64,000 nt of DNA from positions 2,728,001 through 2,792,000 of the forward strand of contig NZ_JACCFH010000001.1 in the NCBI RefSeq assembly GCF_013410775.1, read 5' to 3'. The notes beneath the pieces were generated by a model. It searched no databases and was not told where the DNA came from. It saw nothing but the letters and a program-made list of their open reading frames with translations. Origin of the DNA: Sphaerotilus montanus. Lineage in GTDB: Bacteria; Pseudomonadota; Gammaproteobacteria; Burkholderiales; Burkholderiaceae_C. Within the stretch, counting starts at the first letter, position 1; the number at the start of each line of letters is the position of its first letter. Positions 10,643-56,989 of the stretch are shown here, piece by piece. The translations under genes and the position numbers were made by a program.

Positions 10643-13600
10643 TCAGTATTCGGGCTGGTTCCGGACCAGCTCAAGGATACGGTCCGCCCGCGCATCCAGG
10701 TCTTCCTGCGTCCCGCTGCCTTCTGCCGCGATCAGCACGCCCGGCGCACCCAAGGCCAGCTTGATCGCCGTGCGCAGCTTGCGTGTCTTCATCTTCGCGT
10801 TGACCGTGCGCCAGTCGTCCTCGCGGTGTGTCACCACGGCGTGGTGGACGCTGAGCGCGAGCGGCTGGTTCTGGCCGAGGTTGTCGAACAGCGCCTGTTT
10901 GCCGGGTGTGTCGATGGCGCGCGGGTAGGCCGCGCCGGAGGAGGGCGACTGCACCTGCCGCGCCAGCGTGCTGGCCTGCTTGAGAAACTCGGCGTAGTCG
11001 ATCGCCTGTTCCCGCCGCTGCGCGATCAGCGCGTCCAGCAGCGCCGACATGCGCTCGTAGTACTTCGGGTTGACCGGCGACTCGTCGATGATGACCCGGC
11101 GCACGTTGTTCTCGATCGTCTCGGCCACCGAGTCCGTGCTCGTGCGCAGCCCGTCCGGCAGCGCCTCGACCGCTTCGGGGCCGCGCGTGGCAAGCATCTG
11201 CACCAGCGTCAGGTCGTCGAAGGCCGAGAGCTTTTCGCTGTCGCCCGCCTGCACGTAGGTGTCGATCAGGTGGCGCATCGCCGGTTCGTAGGCCTTCAGG
11301 TCGATGTAGTCGCCGCTGCGGATCTTCACCGCGCTGCGCACCGCCTCGAACTGCGTCACCTCGGCTTTCAGCGCCTTCGCTTCGTCGGGTGTCACGCCGG
11401 CTTCCGCGAAATCGCCCGCGAGGTTCGCGTAGGCGCGCACCAGCGCCGCGGTCAGCTTGTAGAGCGCCAGCCGCTGGCCTTCCCGTGCCTTGAGTTCCGC
11501 TGTGTCCCCCGCCGCCGTGCCGCAGAAGAAGCGCAGGTAGGTCTCCATCGTCCGCGGTGTCTCGACCGGCTCGCACAGCGCCCGCACCGATTCGAGCACC
11601 TCGTCCAACCGCTCGCGGGCCTTGTCGATGCGGCTGGTGATGAGGCCGGCGATGTCGGTGGCGTCGTAGCCGTCGAGCGCGCCGCGGGTGTAGTCCTGGA
11701 TCGCGCCCTCGACGCGCTCGAACAGGTGCTTGTAGTCGACGATGCAGCCCACCTCCTTGTCGTCGCCGTCCAGCCGGTTGACGCGGCAGATCGCCTGGAA
11801 CAGGCCGTGGTCGCGCATCGGCTTGTCGATGTAGAGGTAGGTCGCGGGCGGCGCGTCGAAGCCGGTCAGCAGCTTGTCCACGACGATCAGCAGTTGCATC
11901 TGCGCCGGCTCGTCGATGAAGCGCTGTTTCACCTCGGTCTCGAAGTCGTCGATGCGCAACACCGCTTCGTCAGGCGGCAGCTTGAACCAGTCGGCCAGCA
12001 TCCGGCGGTAGGTCTCGTACTTCTGCAGCGCGTCCGTCACGCCTTCGCCGGTCGCTTCGCCTTTCACGTCCGCCACCTTCGGCACGTAGGAGCTGACCAC
12101 CGCGCAGCGCCCGGCCAGCGGCGTGCGCGAGAACAGGTCGTGGTAGCGGCAGGCCTCGTACACGCTGCCCGCCACCAGCATCGCGTTGCCGCACCCGCTC
12201 TTCAGGCGGTCGCGGGTGGCCATGTCGAGCAGGATGTCGGCCACGATCTGCTCCAGCCGGCTGCGGCTCGACAGCAGCGTCTGCATCGTGCCCCAGCGCG
12301 CCTTGAGCTGCGCCTTGGCGAGGTCGGTCAGCGCGGCGGTGTGGGCCTCGAACCAGTCGTCGATCTTGCGCTGCGAGGTGATGCGCTGGTCGATGTCGCG
12401 CGCCTCGTAGCGCAGGTCGAGCACCACGCGGTCGCGCACCGCCTCGTTGAACTTGTAGGTGTGGAGGTAGCCGCCGAAGACCTCGATACTGCGCTGCTTG
12501 TCGCTCTTGAGCAGGGGCGTGCCGGTGAAGCCGATGAAGACCGCGTCGGGCAGGATGGCCTTCATCGCGTCGTGCAGCAGGCCGGACTGGGTGCGGTGGC
12601 ATTCGTCCACGAAGACGTGGAGCCGGCCCCGCGCCTGGAAGCCTGGGGGCAGCGCCTTGTGGATCGCTTCGACAAACCCGGCCACGTCGCCCGCCTCGCC
12701 GCCGTCGTTTTCGTCGCGCGCGGTTTTCCGGCTGACACCGCCGAACTTGTGGACCAGCGAGCCGATCAGCCACGGCCGGTCGTCGCCCAGCACGCGCACG
12801 AGGTCGGCGCCGTCGCGGGTGCGGTGGAGCTGTTCCTGCACGCCGTGGAAGACCTTTTCGATCTGGGCGTCGAGTTCGGTGCGGTCGGTGATGATGAGGA
12901 CGCGGGCGTCGGCGATGTGTTCGCGGATCCATTTGGCCAGCCAGACCATCGTCAGGCTCTTGCCGGACCCTTGGGTGTGCCAGAGGATGCCGCCCTCGCG
13001 GCGCTGCAGGTGGGTCTGGGCGGCGCGCACGCCGAAATACTGGTTGTGGCGACAGAGTTTCTTGCGCCCGCTGTCGAACACCACGAAGTCGTGGACCAGC
13101 TCCAGCAGCCGCGCCTTGTGGCAGAGCCAGCCGAGGTGCTGGTCGAGCGGGCTGCGCGGGTCGTCGGCGAGGTCGGCGCCGTCTTCGCGCCAGGTCAGGT
13201 AATGGCGTTCGGGCGTGCCGATGGTGCCGTAGCGCAGGCCCTCGGTGTCGCTGCCGGCCATGACGAACTGCAGCGTCGAGAAGAAGCCTTCGATGAATTC
13301 GGGTTTCTGGTTGTCGAGGTTCTGGCGGATGCCTTCGGACACCGAGACGGTGGAGCGTTTCAGCTCGATCACGGCGAGGGCGATGCCGTTGACGTACAGC
13401 ACGAGGTCAGGGCGCTTGGTGTGGGCGCGCGGGTCGTGCGGCTTGACGGTGACTTCCTCGGCGATGCCGAAGTGGTTGCGCTCGGGGTGTTTCCAGTCGA
13501 TCAGCCAGACATCGCGGGTCTGCTCGCCCGCGTCGGGGCGCACCTTGACGCCGTAGCGCAGCAACTCGTACACGGCGCGGTTGCGGTCGTGCAGGCGCTG

Positions 13601-13822
13601 GACGCGGTCGTTGGCGGTTTGCTCCAGCTGGAATATCGCGCGGTTGGCGAGTGCGGCGTCCACGCCTTGCGCCAAGAGAAAAGCCCGCAGCAGGGCGGGC
13701 TCGATGTTGCGGTTGTCGGGGCGGTCGGACCAGTGGCCGAGGTAGGTGTAGCCGAGGGACTCGGTGAAGAGGTGTAGGACTCGGCACTGAGTGGTGAACT
13801 CATTCAGGGAAATTTGCTTCAC
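10643..13822 (-). CDS. hsdR: Type I restriction enzyme, R (endonuclease/translocase) subunit
   Basis: A 1059-aa protein. The N-terminal PD-(D/E)xK nuclease is visible as RPDLVL (137-142) followed by VIELKRS (ELK at 153-155). The superfamily 2 motor has Walker A TQGSGKS (283-289), motif Ia LIITDRTELD, DECH box (406-409) and FTGTP. The C-terminal helical region binds the methylase core. The length is normal for HsdR. Separated from hsdM/hsdS by a lipoprotein gene on the opposite strand, so it likely has its own promoter in 13823-13984. Needs HsdM2S for site recognition, so the damage to hsdS matters for its activity. Confidence 0.93.
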   Translation of the reverse strand: MKQISLNEFTTQCRVLHLFTESLGYTYLGHWSDRPDNRNIEPALLRAFLLAQGVDAALANRAIFQLEQTANDRVQRLHDRNRAVYELLRYGVKVRPDAGEQTRDVWLIDWKHPERNHFGIAEEVTVKPHDPRAHTKRPDLVLYVNGIALAVIELKRSTVSVSEGIRQNLDNQKPEFIEGFFSTLQFVMAGSDTEGLRYGTIGTPERHYLTWREDGADLADDPRSPLDQHLGWLCHKARLLELVHDFVVFDSGRKKLCRHNQYFGVRAAQTHLQRREGGILWHTQGSGKSLTMVWLAKWIREHIADARVLIITDRTELDAQIEKVFHGVQEQLHRTRDGADLVRVLGDDRPWLIGSLVHKFGGVSRKTARDENDGGEAGDVAGFVEAIHKALPPGFQARGRLHVFVDECHRTQSGLLHDAMKAILPDAVFIGFTGTPLLKSDKQRSIEVFGGYLHTYKFNEAVRDRVVLDLRYEARDIDQRITSQRKIDDWFEAHTAALTDLAKAQLKARWGTMQTLLSSRSRLEQIVADILLDMATRDRLKSGCGNAMLVAGSVYEACRYHDLFSRTPLAGRCAVVSSYVPKVADVKGEATGEGVTDALQKYETYRRMLADWFKLPPDEAVLRIDDFETEVKQRFIDEPAQMQLLIVVDKLLTGFDAPPATYLYIDKPMRDHGLFQAICRVNRLDGDDKEVGCIVDYKHLFERVEGAIQDYTRGALDGYDATDIAGLITSRIDKARERLDEVLESVRALCEPVETPRTMETYLRFFCGTAAGDTAELKAREGQRLALYKLTAALVRAYANLAGDFAEAGVTPDEAKALKAEVTQFEAVRSAVKIRSGDYIDLKAYEPAMRHLIDTYVQAGDSEKLSAFDDLTLVQMLATRGPEAVEALPDGLRTSTDSVAETIENNVRRVIIDESPVNPKYYERMSALLDALIAQRREQAIDYAEFLKQASTLARQVQSPSSGAAYPRAIDTPGKQALFDNLGQNQPLALSVHHAVVTHREDDWRTVNAKMKTRKLRTAIKLALGAPGVLIAAEGSGTQEDLDARADRILELVRNQPEY

Positions 13823-13984
13823 GCTGATTTTCCTAGTGTCTGACGAATTTTGTGTTCGACTGGAATCATGGTATTTTGAGGTGGATCAATAATTTTTTCC
13901 GATGTGGCTGTAGTCTGGTCTTGATGACTGGGTGCCTATGAATGTCATTGACCATCTGAGTTGTCGAAAATAGTTGAGGGGCGT

Positions 13985-14710
13985 ATGAGTAAATTGATCA
14001 TGGGTCTGCTGGTGTCCACAGCAATATCTGGGTGTGCCAGTCTCAGTGACTTTGGGGGTAAGCCCCCTGTCCCGGTTATCCCGCCGCCTTTGGCCACTGT
14101 GGCGCCGAGTCCCGGCGCAATGGTTTCACCTATTTTGGAGTTTGTTTCCGTTGATCCTGCGACATCTCCATGGTTCGAGAAAGAAACTCAGTCTGGTGTG
14201 AAGAAGGTTTTCTGGGAGGACCTCAAAAATTCAGAGGCAAACCCGGAGTTGCCTTTGGAGCGATCATTCGTTTCGATAAAAAGAGTGACCGGAGATGGGT
14301 CTTTGGGGTTTGCTTCTACAAAATTCTCTGCCGAGGCTGGAAAATATAGGACAATAATTGATTATGCAAAATATAGGGATGAGGTTATGGGGCCAAATAA
14401 TATACCGTGCAAAGTCGGGGTTGGCGTGAGAATAGTTGCTGATATTGTTACAACAAAAGCCAATGTGGATCTTGGTAGCCTGTTTGCCATTGCATTTGCC
14501 GCTAAGTCAGGGTATCTGAGTGGTCAAATTGAAGTGATAAAAATCGGTATTGATTCGCCTGCATTGAGTTTAATACTTCCGCCGCCGACTGAGATTAATG
14601 ATACATCTCTTCAGAACGCAATGCAGGCTGTCGCTGCGATTAGAGCGAAAATGTATGATGATGAGACGAAAATTCGACCGCATGTTATTGCTATTAAGTA
14701 TCTTAAGTGA
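13985..14710 (+). CDS. Predicted lipoprotein of unknown function inside the hsd locus
   Basis: A 241-aa protein with a lipoprotein signal peptide (MSKLIMGLLVSTAISGCAS, lipobox ISGC) and a Pro-rich stretch just after it. The remainder matches no family I recognise. A GAGG ribosome-binding site lies upstream of 13985; an in-frame TTG-type start at 13961 would spoil the signal peptide. The gene is clearly AT-richer than its neighbours and runs against hsdR and hsdS, overlapping the hsdS stop tail-to-tail by 8 nt. It looks like a separately acquired cargo gene. Confidence 0.6.
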   Translation: MSKLIMGLLVSTAISGCASLSDFGGKPPVPVIPPPLATVAPSPGAMVSPILEFVSVDPATSPWFEKETQSGVKKVFWEDLKNSEANPELPLERSFVSIKRVTGDGSLGFASTKFSAEAGKYRTIIDYAKYRDEVMGPNNIPCKVGVGVRIVADIVTTKANVDLGSLFAIAFAAKSGYLSGQIEVIKIGIDSPALSLILPPPTEINDTSLQNAMQAVAAIRAKMYDDETKIRPHVIAIKYLK

Positions 14711-15527
14711 GTTGGATCATAAGTTGGCATGCTTGCCTTGACAGTAAATTCTGCATCATCCCTTGCTTGATGAGGCGAGTTTTTTCTCGGCGGGCTTCGA
14801 GGGCGGTGATCTCGGTGTCCATGTCACTGAGCACGCCCGCGATTCGATTCTGTTCAGGCAGTTCCGGCATCGGGATCTTGCAGTCACGTACCTGGGCGAG
14901 ACTCAGTTGCGGATATGCTTGGCCGGTCGTGATTTTCTCGAAGTCCTTGCGAACGCGGCGCTGGGAAAAGTAGTGATAGACGAATCTCGAATTGATTTGA
15001 GGGTCGTTGATCCTGATGCGGGCGATGTGCTGATTGATGTTGCTGCCGTCGCATTCTGGAGTTGCTTGGACCACGCGCCCCACGTTGCCGGTAATGGTCA
15101 TGAGCAAGTCGCCTTGCAGCACTTCGCTGCGTTTCAATACGGCGTGGGCTTCTGGCGATATGTGCATGGATTGGGTCAGGTCAATGCCTGCATCGCTGAC
15201 ACATTCGCTCCGCAGAAACAGAACGCCGCTGGTTTCCCAGTTGAAACCATAGGTCGTTGGTGTTGAACCTTTGGTGATGAATGCTGAAATGTCTGTCAGC
15301 TTGCGAGAAGTCCAGTTTTTGGCTGGCTTCTCGAAAAACTCCTGCATCGCCGCCTGCTTGATATCCCGCTTCTTGGCGATGAGTTGGTCGAGCTTGGCGA
15401 GCAGGGCGTCCATATCCGACAGGGCAGAAGCAATGGCGTTTTGCTCTGCTGGTTTGGGGAATGGAATCAATAACTTTCGAATTTGCTGAATATTTATTCT
15501 TTCCTGATTAGCAATGATTCTCAGCAA
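14703..15527 (-). pseudogene. hsdS: hsdS 3' part: type I specificity subunit, second half, detached by IS1595-family insertion
   Basis: About 263 native codons covering the end of the central conserved helix region (AEQNAIASALSDMDALLAKLDQ), the second target-recognition domain and the C-terminal conserved repeat (EQNRIAGVLSDMDTEITALE). The IS sits at 15503-16547. Joining the flanks after removing the IS and one 8-bp duplication gives a continuous frame (FKRI then NIQQIRK), so the native protein was about 412 aa. The fragment is now open from a TTG inside the IS end, with the IS contributing LLRIIANQ in frame. It could make a half-size subunit if translated. Confidence 0.85.
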
Positions 15528-16547
15528 GGTGCCAACTGACGATCAGGCGTAGCGTAGAAGACAGACCAAGCGCAGGAGCGAGCACATGCCGATGAACCGA
15601 ATCCAGTTCCAGCAGGGGATGTCGCTGCCAGAGTTCATGGCCAGCTTCGGCACGGAAGAGCAATGCGCCGAGGCGGTCAAGCAGGCGCGCTGGCCGCAGG
15701 GCTTCGAGTGCCCGCGCTGCGGCAGTGCGGCGCACTACGTGGTGGGCCACGGGGCGCGCAAGCTGTTCCAGTGCAACGGCTGCCGCCACCAGACATCGCT
15801 GACCGCGGGCAGCCTGTTCGCCAGCACCAAGCTGCCACTGAAGACGTGGTTCCTGGCGATCTACCTGCTCAGCCAGGCCAAGACGGGACTGTCGGCGCTG
15901 GCGCTCAAGCGGCAGGTGGGCGTGAGCTACCCGACGGCGTGGCTGATGCACCAGAAGATCATGCACGCGATGGCCGAGCGGGTGGACCAGTACCGACTCG
16001 ACGGCACGGTGCAGCTCGACGATGCCTACCTTGGCGGAGAGCGCAGCGGCGGCAAGGCGGGCCGGGGTTCGGAGAACAAGGTGCCGTTCGTGGCGGCGGT
16101 CTCGGTCGATGACCAGGGGCATCCGCAGTACGTCAAGCTCGCGCCGGTGAGCGGCTTCACGCTGGAGGCGGTGGGCCAGTGGGCGCAGGCGGCGCTGATG
16201 CCGGGAACGCGGGTGGTCAGCGACGGGCTGGGGTGCTTCGCCGCGGTCACCAGCGCGGGCTGCCTGCACACGCCGATCGTGGTGGGCCAGCGCAAGCCGC
16301 GCGAGCTGCCCGAGTTCACCTGGGTCAACACGGTGCTGGGCAACCTGAAGACGACGTTGTCGGGTGCGTTCCATGCGTTCAAGTACCCCAAGTACGCCAG
16401 CAGCTATCTGGCAGCGTTCGCCTACCGCTTCAACCGCCGGTTCGACCTGCGCGGGCTGGTGGCTCGGCTCATCATCGATGTCGCGCGGTGCAAGCCTCGG
16501 GCTCAGCGGGTCGTTCTGGGGAATGCTGAGGATCGTTGCTAATCAGG
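15503..16547 (+). mobile_element. IS1595-family insertion sequence, copy 1 (1045 bp) in hsdS
   Basis: The ends are CCTGATTAGCAA at the left and TTGCTAATCAGG at the right. The imperfect terminal inverted repeat extends about 24 bp, with mismatches where the left reads AATGATTCTCAGC and the right (reversed) AACGATCCTCAGC. Flanked by a perfect 8-bp direct repeat TATTCTTT at 15495-15502 and 16548-16555, the size expected for this family. Carries one transposase gene. Nearly identical to copy 2 (I saw one transposase difference, at codon 311), which implies recent movement. Confidence 0.95.
15586..16542 (+). CDS. IS1595-family (ISXO2-like) transposase, copy 1
   Basis: A 318-aa transposase. The N-terminal zinc ribbon has cysteines at 42/45 and 63/66 (CPRCG, CNGCR). 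The catalytic core has acidic residues in LDDAYLGGERSGGK (145-146) and VVSDGLGCF (D213), and the conserved Asn-rich stretch FTWVNTVLGNLK (245-255). The start ATG follows GGAG in the IS leader. The stop lies within the right terminal repeat. Differs from copy 2 near the C-terminus (Leu versus Arg at residue 311). Apparently intact. Confidence 0.95.
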   Translation: MPMNRIQFQQGMSLPEFMASFGTEEQCAEAVKQARWPQGFECPRCGSAAHYVVGHGARKLFQCNGCRHQTSLTAGSLFASTKLPLKTWFLAIYLLSQAKTGLSALALKRQVGVSYPTAWLMHQKIMHAMAERVDQYRLDGTVQLDDAYLGGERSGGKAGRGSENKVPFVAAVSVDDQGHPQYVKLAPVSGFTLEAVGQWAQAALMPGTRVVSDGLGCFAAVTSAGCLHTPIVVGQRKPRELPEFTWVNTVLGNLKTTLSGAFHAFKYPKYASSYLAAFAYRFNRRFDLRGLVARLIIDVARCKPRAQRVVLGNAEDRC

Positions 16548-16994
16548 TATTCTTTTGAATGTTGAGCCAACCATGGCATCTGAAATCTGTCTCCCAATGG
16601 CTTCAGACTGAAGTGTCTGCTGAAGGGATTCTGGCGAGTAAATTTCATTTCGTCTTCTCAATAGGCAAACATCTTGCCCCATTGCGAATTTTGGATGCGT
16701 GTTGCTTACTTGAGCGACAGAGCCGATAGTTGCGTTCCTACTTATTATTAAATCGCCGGGTTTCGGCTTTCTGTTGCCTTCACAAAGTTGGAGATAAAAA
16801 TCTTCTGTTGTTTGTTTGGCATTGGTTAGATCGACGAATTTACTTTGAACTTCTGCGATGCTCGCAACGGGATATCCATCGAGGATGAATTTTGCGGTTA
16901 TATGCTTGCAGTCGATTACATCCCAATAGTCGCCGAGTTCACTATAGTCCCAGTCTGTCGGAAGTTCATTTTTTGGCTTTTGATTGGTGCTCAT
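16539..16994 (-). pseudogene. hsdS: hsdS 5' part: type I specificity subunit, first target-recognition domain, truncated by the IS
   Basis: The native start ATG at 16994 overlaps the hsdM stop (TAATG). The frame encodes about 149 native residues of the first target-recognition domain, including KPGDLIISRNATIGSVAQV, a usual HsdS landmark. It then crosses into the IS at 16547 and stops at 16539 after two foreign codons (Pro-Asp). It lacks the central conserved helices needed for HsdM contact, so the fragment alone is unlikely to assemble. The AT-richer composition than hsdM fits the variable nature of recognition domains. Confidence 0.85.
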
Positions 16995-19387
16995 TACAGC
17001 CCCATAGCTTTCAGGTTGAGAGATGTTTTGGTGCTGATGTATTCAATTTCTGAAATTAAAGCCGGCAACGGCACCGCATACCGCTCCCCCAACTCCCGCA
17101 CCCGCCCCGTCAACCCCTGCGACACCCGATCCAGCTCCGACTGCACATCCGCCGCCAGCCGCGTCATCCACTTGTCGTCGATCACCAGCGCCCGGATCTC
17201 GTCGTCGGTCAGCGCGGCGTATTGCCGGGCGGCCTTCGTCTCCAGCGCTTTGCGGGCGTCCTTGATGCGCCGCCCCGCGTCGGCTTCCTGGTCGTTCAGC
17301 GCCAGCCACGCCTCCAACTGCACCCGCTCGTCCGCCGCCCCCGGATCGCCCTTGATCGCCTTCAGCCGCGCCTTGACGCTCAATGCCGTCAGCTTGCCCT
17401 TGTCCGTGCGCGCCTCGGCCCCGAGCAGCCCGTCCTCGCCGCCGTGTTCCTCTTCCAGTTCCTCCAGCAGCCGCGTGAACCCGTCGCGCACCGTCTCCAG
17501 CTCCGCCACCCACGCCGCGTCCGCCGCGAAATACCGCGCCACCACCAGCGGCATCGGGATCAGGTCCGTGTTCGGCTCCATCCGCCCCGCCGTCGCCCCC
17601 GGCCGCTGCGCCCGCCAGCCGTCCTGGACGATCTGCGACACGTCGTCCTGCATCACCTCGTCCCAGTAATCCATCAGGTGCTGGTACACGTCATAAGCGT
17701 CGATCAGCGGCGCCCCCTCGAACCGCGCCAGGATCGACTCCCCCAACGCCCGCACCAGCGCCCGCGCCGCATCCCCCACCGCCAGCGCCCGCAGCCCCAC
17801 CGTGCTCTCCTCGCGCCACGCCGCAAACCGCCCGCTCACCGTCGCGTTGAACGCCGTGAACTCCGCATGGCCGAAGATCGCCGCCCGGATCTCCGCCGCC
17901 GGCACCTTCAGCCGCACATGCCCCGGCCGCCCCGCCAGATCCTCGAACAAGGCCGCCCGCACCCCCGGAAACACCGCCCAGTAACGCTGCAGCGCGTCGA
18001 TGTCCCGCCGCGGAATGCCGCCGCGCAGGTGCGCCTCGATGTCCTGCAGATCCTCCGGCTCGCTGCCGTCGATGTAGCGCGGGATGTTCAGGTTCCAGTC
18101 GTTGGCCTCGATCTCCGCCAGCGGCACCCGGCGCGCATACCGCTCCGCTTCGCCCTGGCGCGTCACCACGTCCACGATGCGGTGGATGTCCTGCGCCCGC
18201 AGCCGGTTCTTGTTGCCGTCCTTGCGGAAGCCCCGGCTCGCATCGACCACGAACACGCTGTCCCGCGTCGCCGCCTGCGACTTGTCCAGCACGAGGATGC
18301 AGGCCGGGATGCCGGTGCCGTAGAACAGGTTCGCCGGCAACCCGATCAGCGTCTGGATGAACCCCTGTTTCAGCAGCCGCTGCCGGATCAACCCCTCCGC
18401 GCCACCTCGGAACAGCACCCCGTGCGGCAGGATCACCGCCGCCCGCCCGGTGCTCTTCAACACCTTCAGGATGTGCAGCAGGAAAGCGTAGTCGCCGTTC
18501 TTCTCCGGCGGCACGCCATACACGAAGCGCCCGAACTCGTCGTCCTGCGGCTGCAGCCCGTTGCTCCACGCCTTGCTGGAGAAGGGCGGATTGGCCACCA
18601 CGTAATCGAAGGTCTTCAACTGCCCCGCCGCGTCGCGGAACTGCGGCGACGACAGCGTGTTGCCCTTCTCGATCGCGCCCGTGGTGCAGTCGTGCAGGAT
18701 CATGTTCATCTTGGCCAGCGCGCTGGTGGCGTTGTCCATTTCCTGTCCGTAGAGCGTCAGCCCGTGCGGCGCCTCGGCCGCCACCTTCAGCAACAGCGAG
18801 CCGGAGCCGCAGGTCGGGTCGTGCGCGCTCCTCGATGCCGGCGTGTCCGCCCCGATCCCCAGCAGCCGCGCCATCACGGTCGAGACCTCGGCGGGTGTGT
18901 AGAACTGGCCCTTGCTCTTGCCGCTCTCGGTGGCGAAGTGGCGCATCAGGAACTCGTAGGCGTCGCCGAGCAGGTCATCGCCCTCGGCCCGGTTGCCGCT
19001 GAAGTCCAGCCCCGGCGCGTTGAAGATGCCGATCAGGTTGGAGAGCCGATCGACCATCTCCCGGCCCTTGCCGAGCTTGTCTGGGTCATTGAAATCGACG
19101 AGGTTGATGATGCCGTTGAGGTCGTTCTCTTCGGCCAATGCAGTGATCGCTGTGTTCAGCTTGTCGCCGATGTCCTTGTTGCCCTTGAGTGCCACCAGAT
19201 CACTGAAGCGGCTGCCCTCGGGCACGAAGATCTGGCCATCCGGATCACCCGCATACCGGTCGCTGACATATTTCATGAACAGCAGCACCAGCACGTAGTC
19301 CTTGTACTGGCTGGCGTCCATGCCGCCTCTCAACTCATCACAGCTCTTCCACAGCGATGCATACAGTTCTGATTTCTTGACGGCCAT
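16994..19387 (-). CDS. hsdM: Type I restriction-modification N6-adenine methyltransferase subunit M
   Basis: A 797-aa protein with the helical N-terminal HsdM domain (KKSELYASLWKSCDELRGG...), SAM-binding DPTCGSGSLL at 190-199 and catalytic NPPF at 266-269. The C-terminal part is longer than in the classic 490-530 residue HsdM and ends in a helical segment. The start MAVKKSEL at 19387 is preferred; an upstream extension to 19480 reads as non-coding and would overlap the start of the divergent GST gene. First gene of the minus-strand hsdM-hsdS unit. Methylates the site chosen by HsdS. Confidence 0.93.
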   Translation of the reverse strand: MAVKKSELYASLWKSCDELRGGMDASQYKDYVLVLLFMKYVSDRYAGDPDGQIFVPEGSRFSDLVALKGNKDIGDKLNTAITALAEENDLNGIINLVDFNDPDKLGKGREMVDRLSNLIGIFNAPGLDFSGNRAEGDDLLGDAYEFLMRHFATESGKSKGQFYTPAEVSTVMARLLGIGADTPASRSAHDPTCGSGSLLLKVAAEAPHGLTLYGQEMDNATSALAKMNMILHDCTTGAIEKGNTLSSPQFRDAAGQLKTFDYVVANPPFSSKAWSNGLQPQDDEFGRFVYGVPPEKNGDYAFLLHILKVLKSTGRAAVILPHGVLFRGGAEGLIRQRLLKQGFIQTLIGLPANLFYGTGIPACILVLDKSQAATRDSVFVVDASRGFRKDGNKNRLRAQDIHRIVDVVTRQGEAERYARRVPLAEIEANDWNLNIPRYIDGSEPEDLQDIEAHLRGGIPRRDIDALQRYWAVFPGVRAALFEDLAGRPGHVRLKVPAAEIRAAIFGHAEFTAFNATVSGRFAAWREESTVGLRALAVGDAARALVRALGESILARFEGAPLIDAYDVYQHLMDYWDEVMQDDVSQIVQDGWRAQRPGATAGRMEPNTDLIPMPLVVARYFAADAAWVAELETVRDGFTRLLEELEEEHGGEDGLLGAEARTDKGKLTALSVKARLKAIKGDPGAADERVQLEAWLALNDQEADAGRRIKDARKALETKAARQYAALTDDEIRALVIDDKWMTRLAADVQSELDRVSQGLTGRVRELGERYAVPLPALISEIEYISTKTSLNLKAMGL

Positions 19388-21988: not shown

Positions 21989-23033
21989 CCTGATTAGCAA
22001 TGATTCTCAGCAAGGTGCCAACTGACGATCAGGCGTAGCGTAGAAGACAGACCAAGCGCAGGAGCGAGCACATGCCGATGAACCGAATCCAGTTCCAGCA
22101 GGGGATGTCGCTGCCAGAGTTCATGGCCAGCTTCGGCACGGAAGAGCAATGCGCCGAGGCGGTCAAGCAGGCGCGCTGGCCGCAGGGCTTCGAGTGCCCG
22201 CGCTGCGGCAGTGCGGCGCACTACGTGGTGGGCCACGGGGCGCGCAAGCTGTTCCAGTGCAACGGCTGCCGCCACCAGACATCGCTGACCGCGGGCAGCC
22301 TGTTCGCCAGCACCAAGCTGCCACTGAAGACGTGGTTCCTGGCGATCTACCTGCTCAGCCAGGCCAAGACGGGACTGTCGGCGCTGGCGCTCAAGCGGCA
22401 GGTGGGCGTGAGCTACCCGACGGCGTGGCTGATGCACCAGAAGATCATGCACGCGATGGCCGAGCGGGTGGACCAGTACCGACTCGACGGCACGGTGCAG
22501 CTCGACGATGCCTACCTTGGCGGAGAGCGCAGCGGCGGCAAGGCGGGCCGGGGTTCGGAGAACAAGGTGCCGTTCGTGGCGGCGGTCTCGGTCGATGACC
22601 AGGGGCATCCGCAGTACGTCAAGCTCGCGCCGGTGAGCGGCTTCACGCTGGAGGCGGTGGGCCAGTGGGCGCAGGCGGCGCTGATGCCGGGAACGCGGGT
22701 GGTCAGCGACGGGCTGGGGTGCTTCGCCGCGGTCACCAGCGCGGGCTGCCTGCACACGCCGATCGTGGTGGGCCAGCGCAAGCCGCGCGAGCTGCCCGAG
22801 TTCACCTGGGTCAACACGGTGCTGGGCAACCTGAAGACGACGTTGTCGGGTGCGTTCCATGCGTTCAAGTACCCCAAGTACGCCAGCAGCTATCTGGCAG
22901 CGTTCGCCTACCGCTTCAACCGCCGGTTCGACCTGCGCGGGCTGGTGGCTCGGCTCATCATCGATGTCGCGCGGTGCAAGCCTCGGGCTCAGCGGGTCGT
23001 TCGGGGGAATGCTGAGGATCGTTGCTAATCAGG
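21989..23033 (+). mobile_element. IS1595-family insertion sequence, copy 2 (1045 bp)
   Basis: Same ends as copy 1 (CCTGATTAGCAA / TTGCTAATCAGG), same length and same orientation. Flanked by a perfect 8-bp duplication TTTTTGCT at 21981-21988 and 23034-23041. Because copies 1 and 2 each have their own duplication, they inserted independently and are not the arms of one composite transposon. They are nevertheless direct repeats about 5.4 kb apart and could recombine. Confidence 0.95.
22072..23028 (+). CDS. IS1595-family (ISXO2-like) transposase, copy 2
   Basis: A 318-aa transposase matching copy 1 at every position I compared except residue 311 (Arg here, Leu in copy 1). The zinc-ribbon cysteines and the DDA / SDG acidic motifs are all present, so it is expected to be active. 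Arg at this position is shared with copy 3, so Leu in copy 1 is the derived state. Confidence 0.95.
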   Translation: MPMNRIQFQQGMSLPEFMASFGTEEQCAEAVKQARWPQGFECPRCGSAAHYVVGHGARKLFQCNGCRHQTSLTAGSLFASTKLPLKTWFLAIYLLSQAKTGLSALALKRQVGVSYPTAWLMHQKIMHAMAERVDQYRLDGTVQLDDAYLGGERSGGKAGRGSENKVPFVAAVSVDDQGHPQYVKLAPVSGFTLEAVGQWAQAALMPGTRVVSDGLGCFAAVTSAGCLHTPIVVGQRKPRELPEFTWVNTVLGNLKTTLSGAFHAFKYPKYASSYLAAFAYRFNRRFDLRGLVARLIIDVARCKPRAQRVVRGNAEDRC

Positions 23034-55944: not shown

Positions 55945-56989
55945 CCTGATTAGCAACGATCCTCAGCATTCCCCCGAACGACCCGCTGAGCCCGAGGCTT
56001 GCACCGCGAGACATCGATGATGAGCCGAGCCACCAACTCGCGCAGGTCGAACCGACGGTTGAAGCGGTAGGCGAACGCTGCCAGGTAGCTGCTGGCGTAC
56101 TTGGGGTACTTGAACGCATGGAACGCACCCGACAACGTCGTCTTCAGGTTGCCCAGCACCGTGTTGACCCAGGTGAACTCGGGCAGCTCGCGCGGCTTGC
56201 GCTGCCCCACCACGATCGGCGTGTGCAGACAGCCCGCGCTGGTGACCGCGGCGAAGCACCCCAGCCCGTCGCTGACCACCCGCGCTCCCGGCATCAGCGC
56301 CGCCTGCGCCCACTGGCCCACCGCCTCCAGCGTGAAGCCGCTCACCGGCGCGAGCTTGACGTACTGCGGATGCCCCTGGTCATTGACCGAGACCGCCGCC
56401 ACGAACGGCACCTTGTTCTCCGAACCCCGACCCGCCTTGCCGCCGCTGCGCTCCCCGCCGAGGTAGGCATCGTCGAGCTGCACCGTGCCGTCGAGCCGGT
56501 GCTGGCTCTCCCGCTCGGCCATCGCGTGCATGATCTTCTGGTGCATCAGCCACGCCGTCGGGTAGCTCACGCCCACCTGCCGCTTGAGCGCCAGCGCCGA
56601 CAGCCCCGTCTTGGCCTGGCTGAGCAGGTAGATCGCCAGGAACCACGTTCTCAGCGGCAGCTTGGTGCTCGCGAACAGGCTGCCCGCGGTCAGCGAAGTC
56701 TGGTGGCGGCAGCCGTTGCATTGATACAGCTTGCGTGCGCCCTGGCCCACCACGTAGTGCGCCGCAGTGCCGCAGCGCGGGCACTCGAAGCCCTGGGGCC
56801 AGCGTGCCTGCTTGACCGCCTCGGCGCATTGCTCTTCCGTGCCGAAGCTGCTCATGAACTCCGGCAGCGACATCCCTTGCTGGAACTGGATTCGGTTCAT
56901 CGGCATGTGCTCGCTCCTGCGCTTTGTCTGCCTTCTACGCTACGCCTGATCGTCGGCTAGGGCCTTGCTGAAGATCATTGCTAATCAGG
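55945..56989 (-). mobile_element. IS1595-family insertion sequence, copy 3 (1045 bp), in the start of yicC
   Basis: Inverted relative to copies 1 and 2, same length, ends CCTGATTAGCAA and TTGCTAATCAGG. Flanked by a perfect 8-bp duplication TGACCGGT at 55937-55944 and 56990-56997. The sequence differs at scattered positions from copies 1 and 2 (about a dozen transposase residues), so it is an older or separately acquired relative. Inserted 45 nt upstream of the kinase-facing side of the tight kinase/yicC divergent region. Confidence 0.95.
55950..56906 (-). CDS. IS1595-family (ISXO2-like) transposase, copy 3
   Basis: A 318-aa transposase with the same zinc ribbon (CPRCG, CNGCR) and acidic motifs (LDDAYLGGERSGGK, VVSDGLGCF) as the other copies. 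About 12 substitutions were seen, for example RESQHR for RVDQYR and RELVAR for RGLVAR, roughly 96% identity by eye. No frameshift or stop, so probably functional. Confidence 0.95.
   Translation of the reverse strand: MPMNRIQFQQGMSLPEFMSSFGTEEQCAEAVKQARWPQGFECPRCGTAAHYVVGQGARKLYQCNGCRHQTSLTAGSLFASTKLPLRTWFLAIYLLSQAKTGLSALALKRQVGVSYPTAWLMHQKIMHAMAERESQHRLDGTVQLDDAYLGGERSGGKAGRGSENKVPFVAAVSVNDQGHPQYVKLAPVSGFTLEAVGQWAQAALMPGARVVSDGLGCFAAVTSAGCLHTPIVVGQRKPRELPEFTWVNTVLGNLKTTLSGAFHAFKYPKYASSYLAAFAYRFNRRFDLRELVARLIIDVSRCKPRAQRVVRGNAEDRC

Follow-up and report, generated by a model that had tools for sequence, protein, structure and literature searches.

In the EcoDXXI type I restriction-modification system, an insertion of Tn5 in the C-terminal TRD of HsdS is described as giving an active homodimer built on the N-terminal TRD, an engineered deltaN subunit is described as recognising GAAYN5RTTC, and co-expression of N- and C-truncated S genes as regaining wild-type activity (PMC3874165). 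The same review presents NgoAV as the natural case of a half-S, with no equivalents outside type IC reported by 2013 (PMC3874165), and a further report attributes the NgoAV arrangement to a poly-G frameshift that leaves an active N-terminal half of 208 aa with a symmetric site (PMC9577141). In a S. aureus system, both a half-S and an M-half-S fusion are stated to be active, with restriction once HsdR is added (PMC6158711), and fused HsdM-HsdS forms have been named Type IMS (PMC3510504). An hsdS split by a frameshift is mentioned for Prevotella (PMC5608340), and a truncated HsdS in S. xylosus is stated to have given no modification (PMC10030836). As for the genus studied here, the m6A methylase M.Sna507I of Sphaerotilus strain D-507 is listed as type I and has CGCAN7TGCG as its symmetric motif, without a statement of which protein it is, and an orphan S of that strain relies on a methylase belonging to a different system (PMC6856280). 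No description of natural single-TRD HsdM fusions in Sphaerotilus was found by title or abstract in one literature collection.

Here, we analyzed an hsd locus of Sphaerotilus montanus in which an insertion sequence (IS) splits hsdS, within a window of 64,000 nucleotides (the whole stretch of DNA under analysis). In this strain the locus is probably inactive or close to it, and the same HsdM/HsdR lineage is found with other S architectures in the genus.

An hsdS gene split by an insertion sequence

On the minus strand, hsdM is followed by hsdS (16994-14703) and, past a plus-strand ORF (13961-14710), by hsdR (Table 1). The initial annotation had taken hsdM and hsdR to be intact, and both frames were indeed open and matched the expected domains, which in HsdM are N6_Mtase and HsdM_N, together with TIGR00497. 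The hsdM stop overlaps the separate hsdS start in a TAATG. The element within hsdS was assigned to the IS1595 family on the basis of PF12762, PF12760 and NF033547 matches above their cut-offs, inverted ends of 24 bp (15503-15526 and 16524-16547, 92% complementary) and an 8-bp duplication. Target duplications of 8 bp are typical of this family.

Table 1. Coordinates of the hsd genes, the insertion sequence and the hsdS pieces in the window.
Feature	Position	Strand	Details
hsdR	10643..13822	-	1059 aa, open; HSDR_N, SWI2_SNF2, TIGR00348
3' part of hsdS	14703..15527	-	274 aa from TTG in IS end; frame open from 15542
Distal conserved helix	14709..14861	-	fragment residues 223-273; AlphaFold2 model
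TRD2	14862..15320	-	about fragment residues 70-222
Central conserved helix	15330..15452	-	fragment residues 26-66; AlphaFold2 model
Target-site duplication TATTCTTT, left copy	15495..15502	.	8 bp
IS1595-family insertion sequence	15503..16547	+	1045 bp; splits hsdS
Transposase	15586..16542	+	318 aa; PF12762, PF12760, NF033547
5' part of hsdS (stub)	16539..16994	-	ORF 151 aa, ends inside IS
Target-site duplication TATTCTTT, right copy	16548..16555	.	8 bp
hsdM	16994..19387	-	797 codons from ATG 19387; frame open from 19480

It had also been proposed that an IS with its duplication cuts an hsdS of 412 codons, and that removal of the IS and one duplication restores the frame. Both points were confirmed: the 8-bp TATTCTTT stands on both sides of the element, and the flanks joined minus one duplication yield 1239 nt with a single terminal stop and one frame of 412 residues. 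Three features coincide, namely a matching duplication, a frame that is regained on joining, and matches to HsdS domains on either side of the element; the split is beyond chance, and it is certain that the IS divides hsdS. The cut lies at codons 147-149, ahead of the conserved P..EQ motif, and the stub is therefore devoid of the whole central helix. With its HsdS present as two pieces only, the locus differs from a type I restriction-modification system composed of HsdM, HsdR and a two-TRD HsdS; with hsdM and hsdS separate, it also differs from Type IMS, in which HsdM is joined to S.

The IS occurs 19 times in the genome, with 11 copies near-identical to one another and the other 8 at 96%, and a matching 8-bp duplication was present at 15 of the 19. 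Two other copies lie in the window, at 21989-23033 and 55945-56989, one near-identical and one with 96% identity. The copy within hsdS carries one private base with respect to the consensus of its group, and in the HsdM tree the end branches of the window protein and of its nearest intact relative (genome G007) are equal (0.022 each), which gives no sign of long relaxation. The insertion is thus probably young, its dating being limited to that one private base and the HsdM branch, and for this reason the open frames in the 3' fragment say little on selection. As an event it is of a known kind, an ordinary and probably young insertion, and it makes a good natural test case.

Several observations concern the surroundings of the split gene. 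The plus-strand ORF between hsdS and hsdR was absent from the other genomes of the genus (13 searched), and gene content in the hsdS-hsdR gap differed between the sister genomes (loci L055, L056 and L057), with matches to Peptidase_C92, 3D and phospholipase A1 among the ORFs of genome G011; the interval looks like a slot for variable cargo. The end of the window hsdS (14703-14752) reads ...NLLSRQACQLMIQLT, the sister genes ending in ...ELLSGRVRLI, and DNA similarity to the sisters stops at 14752, adjoining the foreign ORF that overlaps the hsdS stop. Two more type I loci with HsdS of two-TRD size occur in the same genome, one at ~3.36 Mb (L066, G000:C1), where an HsdR match is present, and one at ~0.54 Mb (L067), where none was found.

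Content and expression signals of the two hsdS pieces

Both pieces were compared with a profile of a single TRD plus helix (202 positions) built from HsdS proteins of related loci. The 5' stub matched positions 1-132, the helix part (133-202) being missing; it comprises most of TRD1 and has no helix through which to dimerise. The 3' part matched positions 1-193, with the tail of a further module ahead of this match, and matched PF01420 at its residues 70-247. The division into a TRD1 stub and a 3' part with central helix, TRD2 and C-terminal repeat, in an open frame from a TTG, was therefore drawn correctly in the initial annotation. A TRD and a conserved helix, the two components of a half-S, are both present in one open frame of the 3' part, with weak translation signals. 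TRD2 is 62-64% identical to C-terminal TRDs encoded beside distant HsdMs in cyanobacterial and Ktedonobacteria genomes (L095, L109), as would be expected of exchangeable TRDs.

An AlphaFold2 model of the 3' fragment as a single chain, obtained with an alignment of 34 sequences, reached a mean pLDDT of 92.1 and a pTM of 0.83, with two long helices at the positions given in Table 1. Among solved structures it was most similar to the S subunit of PacII (7vru_C; 229 residues aligned, Z 22.8, rmsd 1.8); the other top matches were HsdS chains, and the fourth was the single-TRD Esub1 (8vsr_B, Z 18.7, rmsd 2.5, 185 aligned). No weight was given to families missing from these structure matches. The model thus predicts that the 3' part is a complete, confidently folding module. 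Model residues 24-260, that is, both helices and TRD2, superposed on residues 148-382 of the intact PacII S with an rmsd of 1.8, and given this superposition of a single chain, the additional central helix may find its partner in its own chain, which would produce a one-armed monomer. Transfer of the RCAAY half-site of PacII S (7vru) to TRD2 was also considered; by reading of the alignment only some contact residues are kept, and no motif is proposed.

With regard to expression, the usual starts in the 3' frame are TTG 15527, followed by TTG 15470 and by ATG 15413, the last one inside the central helix, and no clear Shine-Dalgarno sequence precedes any of these three candidates. By computed pairing energy, TTG 15527 (-5.6) does not fall behind the three hsd starts (-3.0 to -4.7); on visual inspection, however, the pairing is due to a GATC far upstream and not to an AGGAGG-like stretch. 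Furthermore, TTG occurs in two of the three outward frames of the same IS end, so finding one at 15527 does not point to adaptation. The minus strand within the IS, including outward from the IS end, gave no promoter-like match, and the TAATG coupling to hsdM, which no longer provides for translation of the 3' fragment, serves the stub alone. Judging from these letters, low-level initiation at TTG 15527 may nevertheless occur. Two other routes were considered and set aside. A Shine-Dalgarno sequence from the junction of IS and duplication (AGGA before ATT 15491 or ATA 15497) would serve rare starts and is not relied on. Re-initiation from a long ORF at 15508-16374 is possible in its geometry, since the TTG falls in the overlap with the end of this ORF; nothing suggests translation of the ORF, which is antisense to the transposase.

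Sister loci and single-TRD fusions

Of 13 genomes of the genus that were searched, four, the window's own included, carry an HsdM at about 93% identity or more. In G007 (HsdM 96.5%, HsdR 96.6% identical), a separate, intact HsdS of 398 aa with two modules is found. In G006 (S. natans ATCC 13338; HsdM 92.8%, HsdR 95.5%) and G011 (HsdM 93.1%, HsdR 94.9%), HsdM runs into one TRD and the distal helix, forming proteins of 1020 and 1039 aa, respectively, and no further S match was detected near either fusion in the 16 kb taken from each. Both loci, in which HsdM and a TRD form one protein and HsdR is encoded separately, have the architecture of a single-TRD Type IMS. A fifth genome, G012, holds remnants only (~214 bp of hsdM and ~605 bp of hsdR; locus L065, contig C8), a decayed copy of the window's hsd locus.

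DNA similarity in the S region was limited to anchors, namely hsdM up to 17064, the central helix, shared with G007 only (98% identity over 15437-15337), and the distal helix (14825-14752), common to G007, G006 and G011. This confinement indicates that TRDs have been exchanged between conserved stretches. At the G011 junction the HsdM tail passes into an apparent HsdS N-terminus, whereas at that of G006 it passes into the apparent end of the central region (LLSGERRLP vs LLTGRRRLP in G007). The HsdM tree does not join G006 and G011, and junctions and tree together suggest two separate fusions.

A set of 111 HsdM loci, made up of 8 individual regions, 80 from genome contigs and 23 from a family search, was examined for the arrangement of S. 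A two-module S in a single ORF lay downstream at 80 of them, one module was seen at 11 and none at 14, all 25 of the latter having less than 2.6 kb of downstream sequence. HsdM was fused to S at six loci, two of which (L056 and L069) are from the same genome and one of which (L153) runs into a contig end, where one and two TRDs are not distinguishable; four distinct single-TRD fusions were left (L056, L057, L146 and L151). Among 45 further loci from the order and class no fusion was found, L189 and L191 in this group repeating earlier places. For the five rows labelled fused, L153 included, well supported branches force at least four changes, and HsdM-TRD fusion is rare but recurrent. In PADLOC, the model PDLC03032, 1001 positions long, aligns with HsdM over positions 1-784 and with the 3' fragment over 804-996; as it spans HsdM plus a half-S, databases already contain fusions of this kind. 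At L155, one of the loci with a single module, a longer stretch (L172, genome G265) showed that the hsdS is split by a different element, whose inverted ends measure 19 bp.

Outcome for the locus and comparison with known systems

Two outcomes had been posed for this locus, loss of activity or altered specificity, and these were the right ones to weigh. Inactivation is the simplest and fits the weak expression signals. In this reading, a recent IS1595-family insertion has broken hsdS, leaving a TRD1 stub that can still be translated via hsdM coupling but has no helix for dimerisation, and a 3' module that transcripts reach solely after 1 kb of antisense IS sequence and that has just a poor TTG start; HsdM and HsdR, left without a specificity subunit, would neither methylate nor cut. 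We counted in favour of inactivity the stub without helix, the poor TTG, the missing IS promoter, the TAATG coupling now confined to the stub, the multicopy IS with its single private base, the G012 remnants and the S. xylosus result, and against it the complete 3' module, the one-TRD sisters, an HsdM branch not longer than that of the intact relative and the possible low-level start at the TTG. Re-activation would be close, by better expression of the 3' half, an in-frame join or TRD exchange at the conserved anchors, given that in sister species this HsdM/HsdR lineage has its HsdM joined to a single TRD.

Altered specificity survives best among the alternatives, and we consider it unlikely. 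The 3' fragment would be translated and form a homodimer via its helices, which with two HsdM would recognise a symmetric bipartite site, made up of the TRD2 half-site, a spacer and the reverse complement of that half-site, to be restricted by HsdR. This part of the initial annotation gains from the single-TRD sister forms of the same HsdM, 93% identical and with HsdR kept at 95%, and it is on their account that a half-subunit has greater plausibility at this locus than where hsdS is disrupted in general. The predicted complete TRD with helix, folding like S subunits and Esub1, the symmetric D-507 motif (PMC6856280) and the reported activity of EcoDXXI deltaN and of M-half-S fusions (PMC3874165, PMC6158711) point the same way. 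The weak translation and promoter signals of the 3' part and the failure in S. xylosus speak against it, as do the natural single-TRD forms being fused to HsdM, with the window half unfused, and the possible one-armed monomer.

The remaining alternatives are far less probable. The stub and the 3' fragment could associate non-covalently and bring back the original two-part specificity, as the truncated EcoDXXI S genes are reported to have done (PMC3874165), and the two pieces jointly hold all 412 residues; however, the break does not separate two modules but interrupts TRD1 itself, ahead of the last strand and helix of that module, and translation of the 3' piece would still be required, so that reassembly is very doubtful. 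A shade less credible is a reversible switch, in which precise excision of the IS would restore hsdS in part of the population: both duplications are intact and would restore the frame, but no sequence feature points to excision. Precise excision of an IS is usually rare. Least probable of all is that the window HsdM works with an HsdS encoded at another genomic locus, for which the two other type I loci and the D-507 orphan S (PMC6856280) could be adduced, since the HsdMs of those loci (L067, L066) are just 27-32% identical to it and their S is unlikely to fit.

While inactivity is the reading preferred for the window strain, the genus as a whole allows a broader and rather improbable proposal, namely that this HsdM/HsdR shifts naturally between two-TRD and single-TRD forms, and that the window represents an IS-driven step in which a homodimer of the C-terminal half, not joined to HsdM, would read a new symmetric site. 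If true, a transposon would here have produced a C-terminal half-S in nature, as an intermediate on the way to the single-TRD fusions of the sister species; conversion between one-TRD and two-TRD enzymes has so far been argued mostly from engineered constructs. Within one genus and with near-identical HsdM and HsdR, an intact two-TRD S, an IS-split S and two different single-TRD fusions are found, with remnants in a fifth genome, and a methylome comparison across these genomes would be a direct test of that evolution and of whether an insertion can create, and not just destroy, specificity.

With respect to described systems, the EcoDXXI precedent invoked in the initial annotation stands in that a type I hsdS is interrupted by a transposon, potentially leaving a subunit with one TRD; it does not stand in that the active Tn5 product (deltaC), as described, is N-terminal with its own start (PMC3874165), whereas the N-terminal piece of the window has no helix and the candidate is a C-terminal half without native start. 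EcoDXXI deltaN is, from its description, the nearer precedent in that a C-terminal half can work, although it was engineered and the window half is known from sequence. NgoAV resembles the window as a natural hsdS in pieces and differs, by the account given of it, in having been broken by a poly-G frameshift, with the N-terminal half active. Type IMS and the engineered M-half-S of S. aureus CC398 are matched in architecture by G006 and G011, which have one TRD and a separate HsdR, while the window encodes HsdM and its half-S in two distinct genes. Finally, a likeness is found at the G265 locus, where a different insertion sequence splits hsdS beside an HsdM 56% identical to that of the window.
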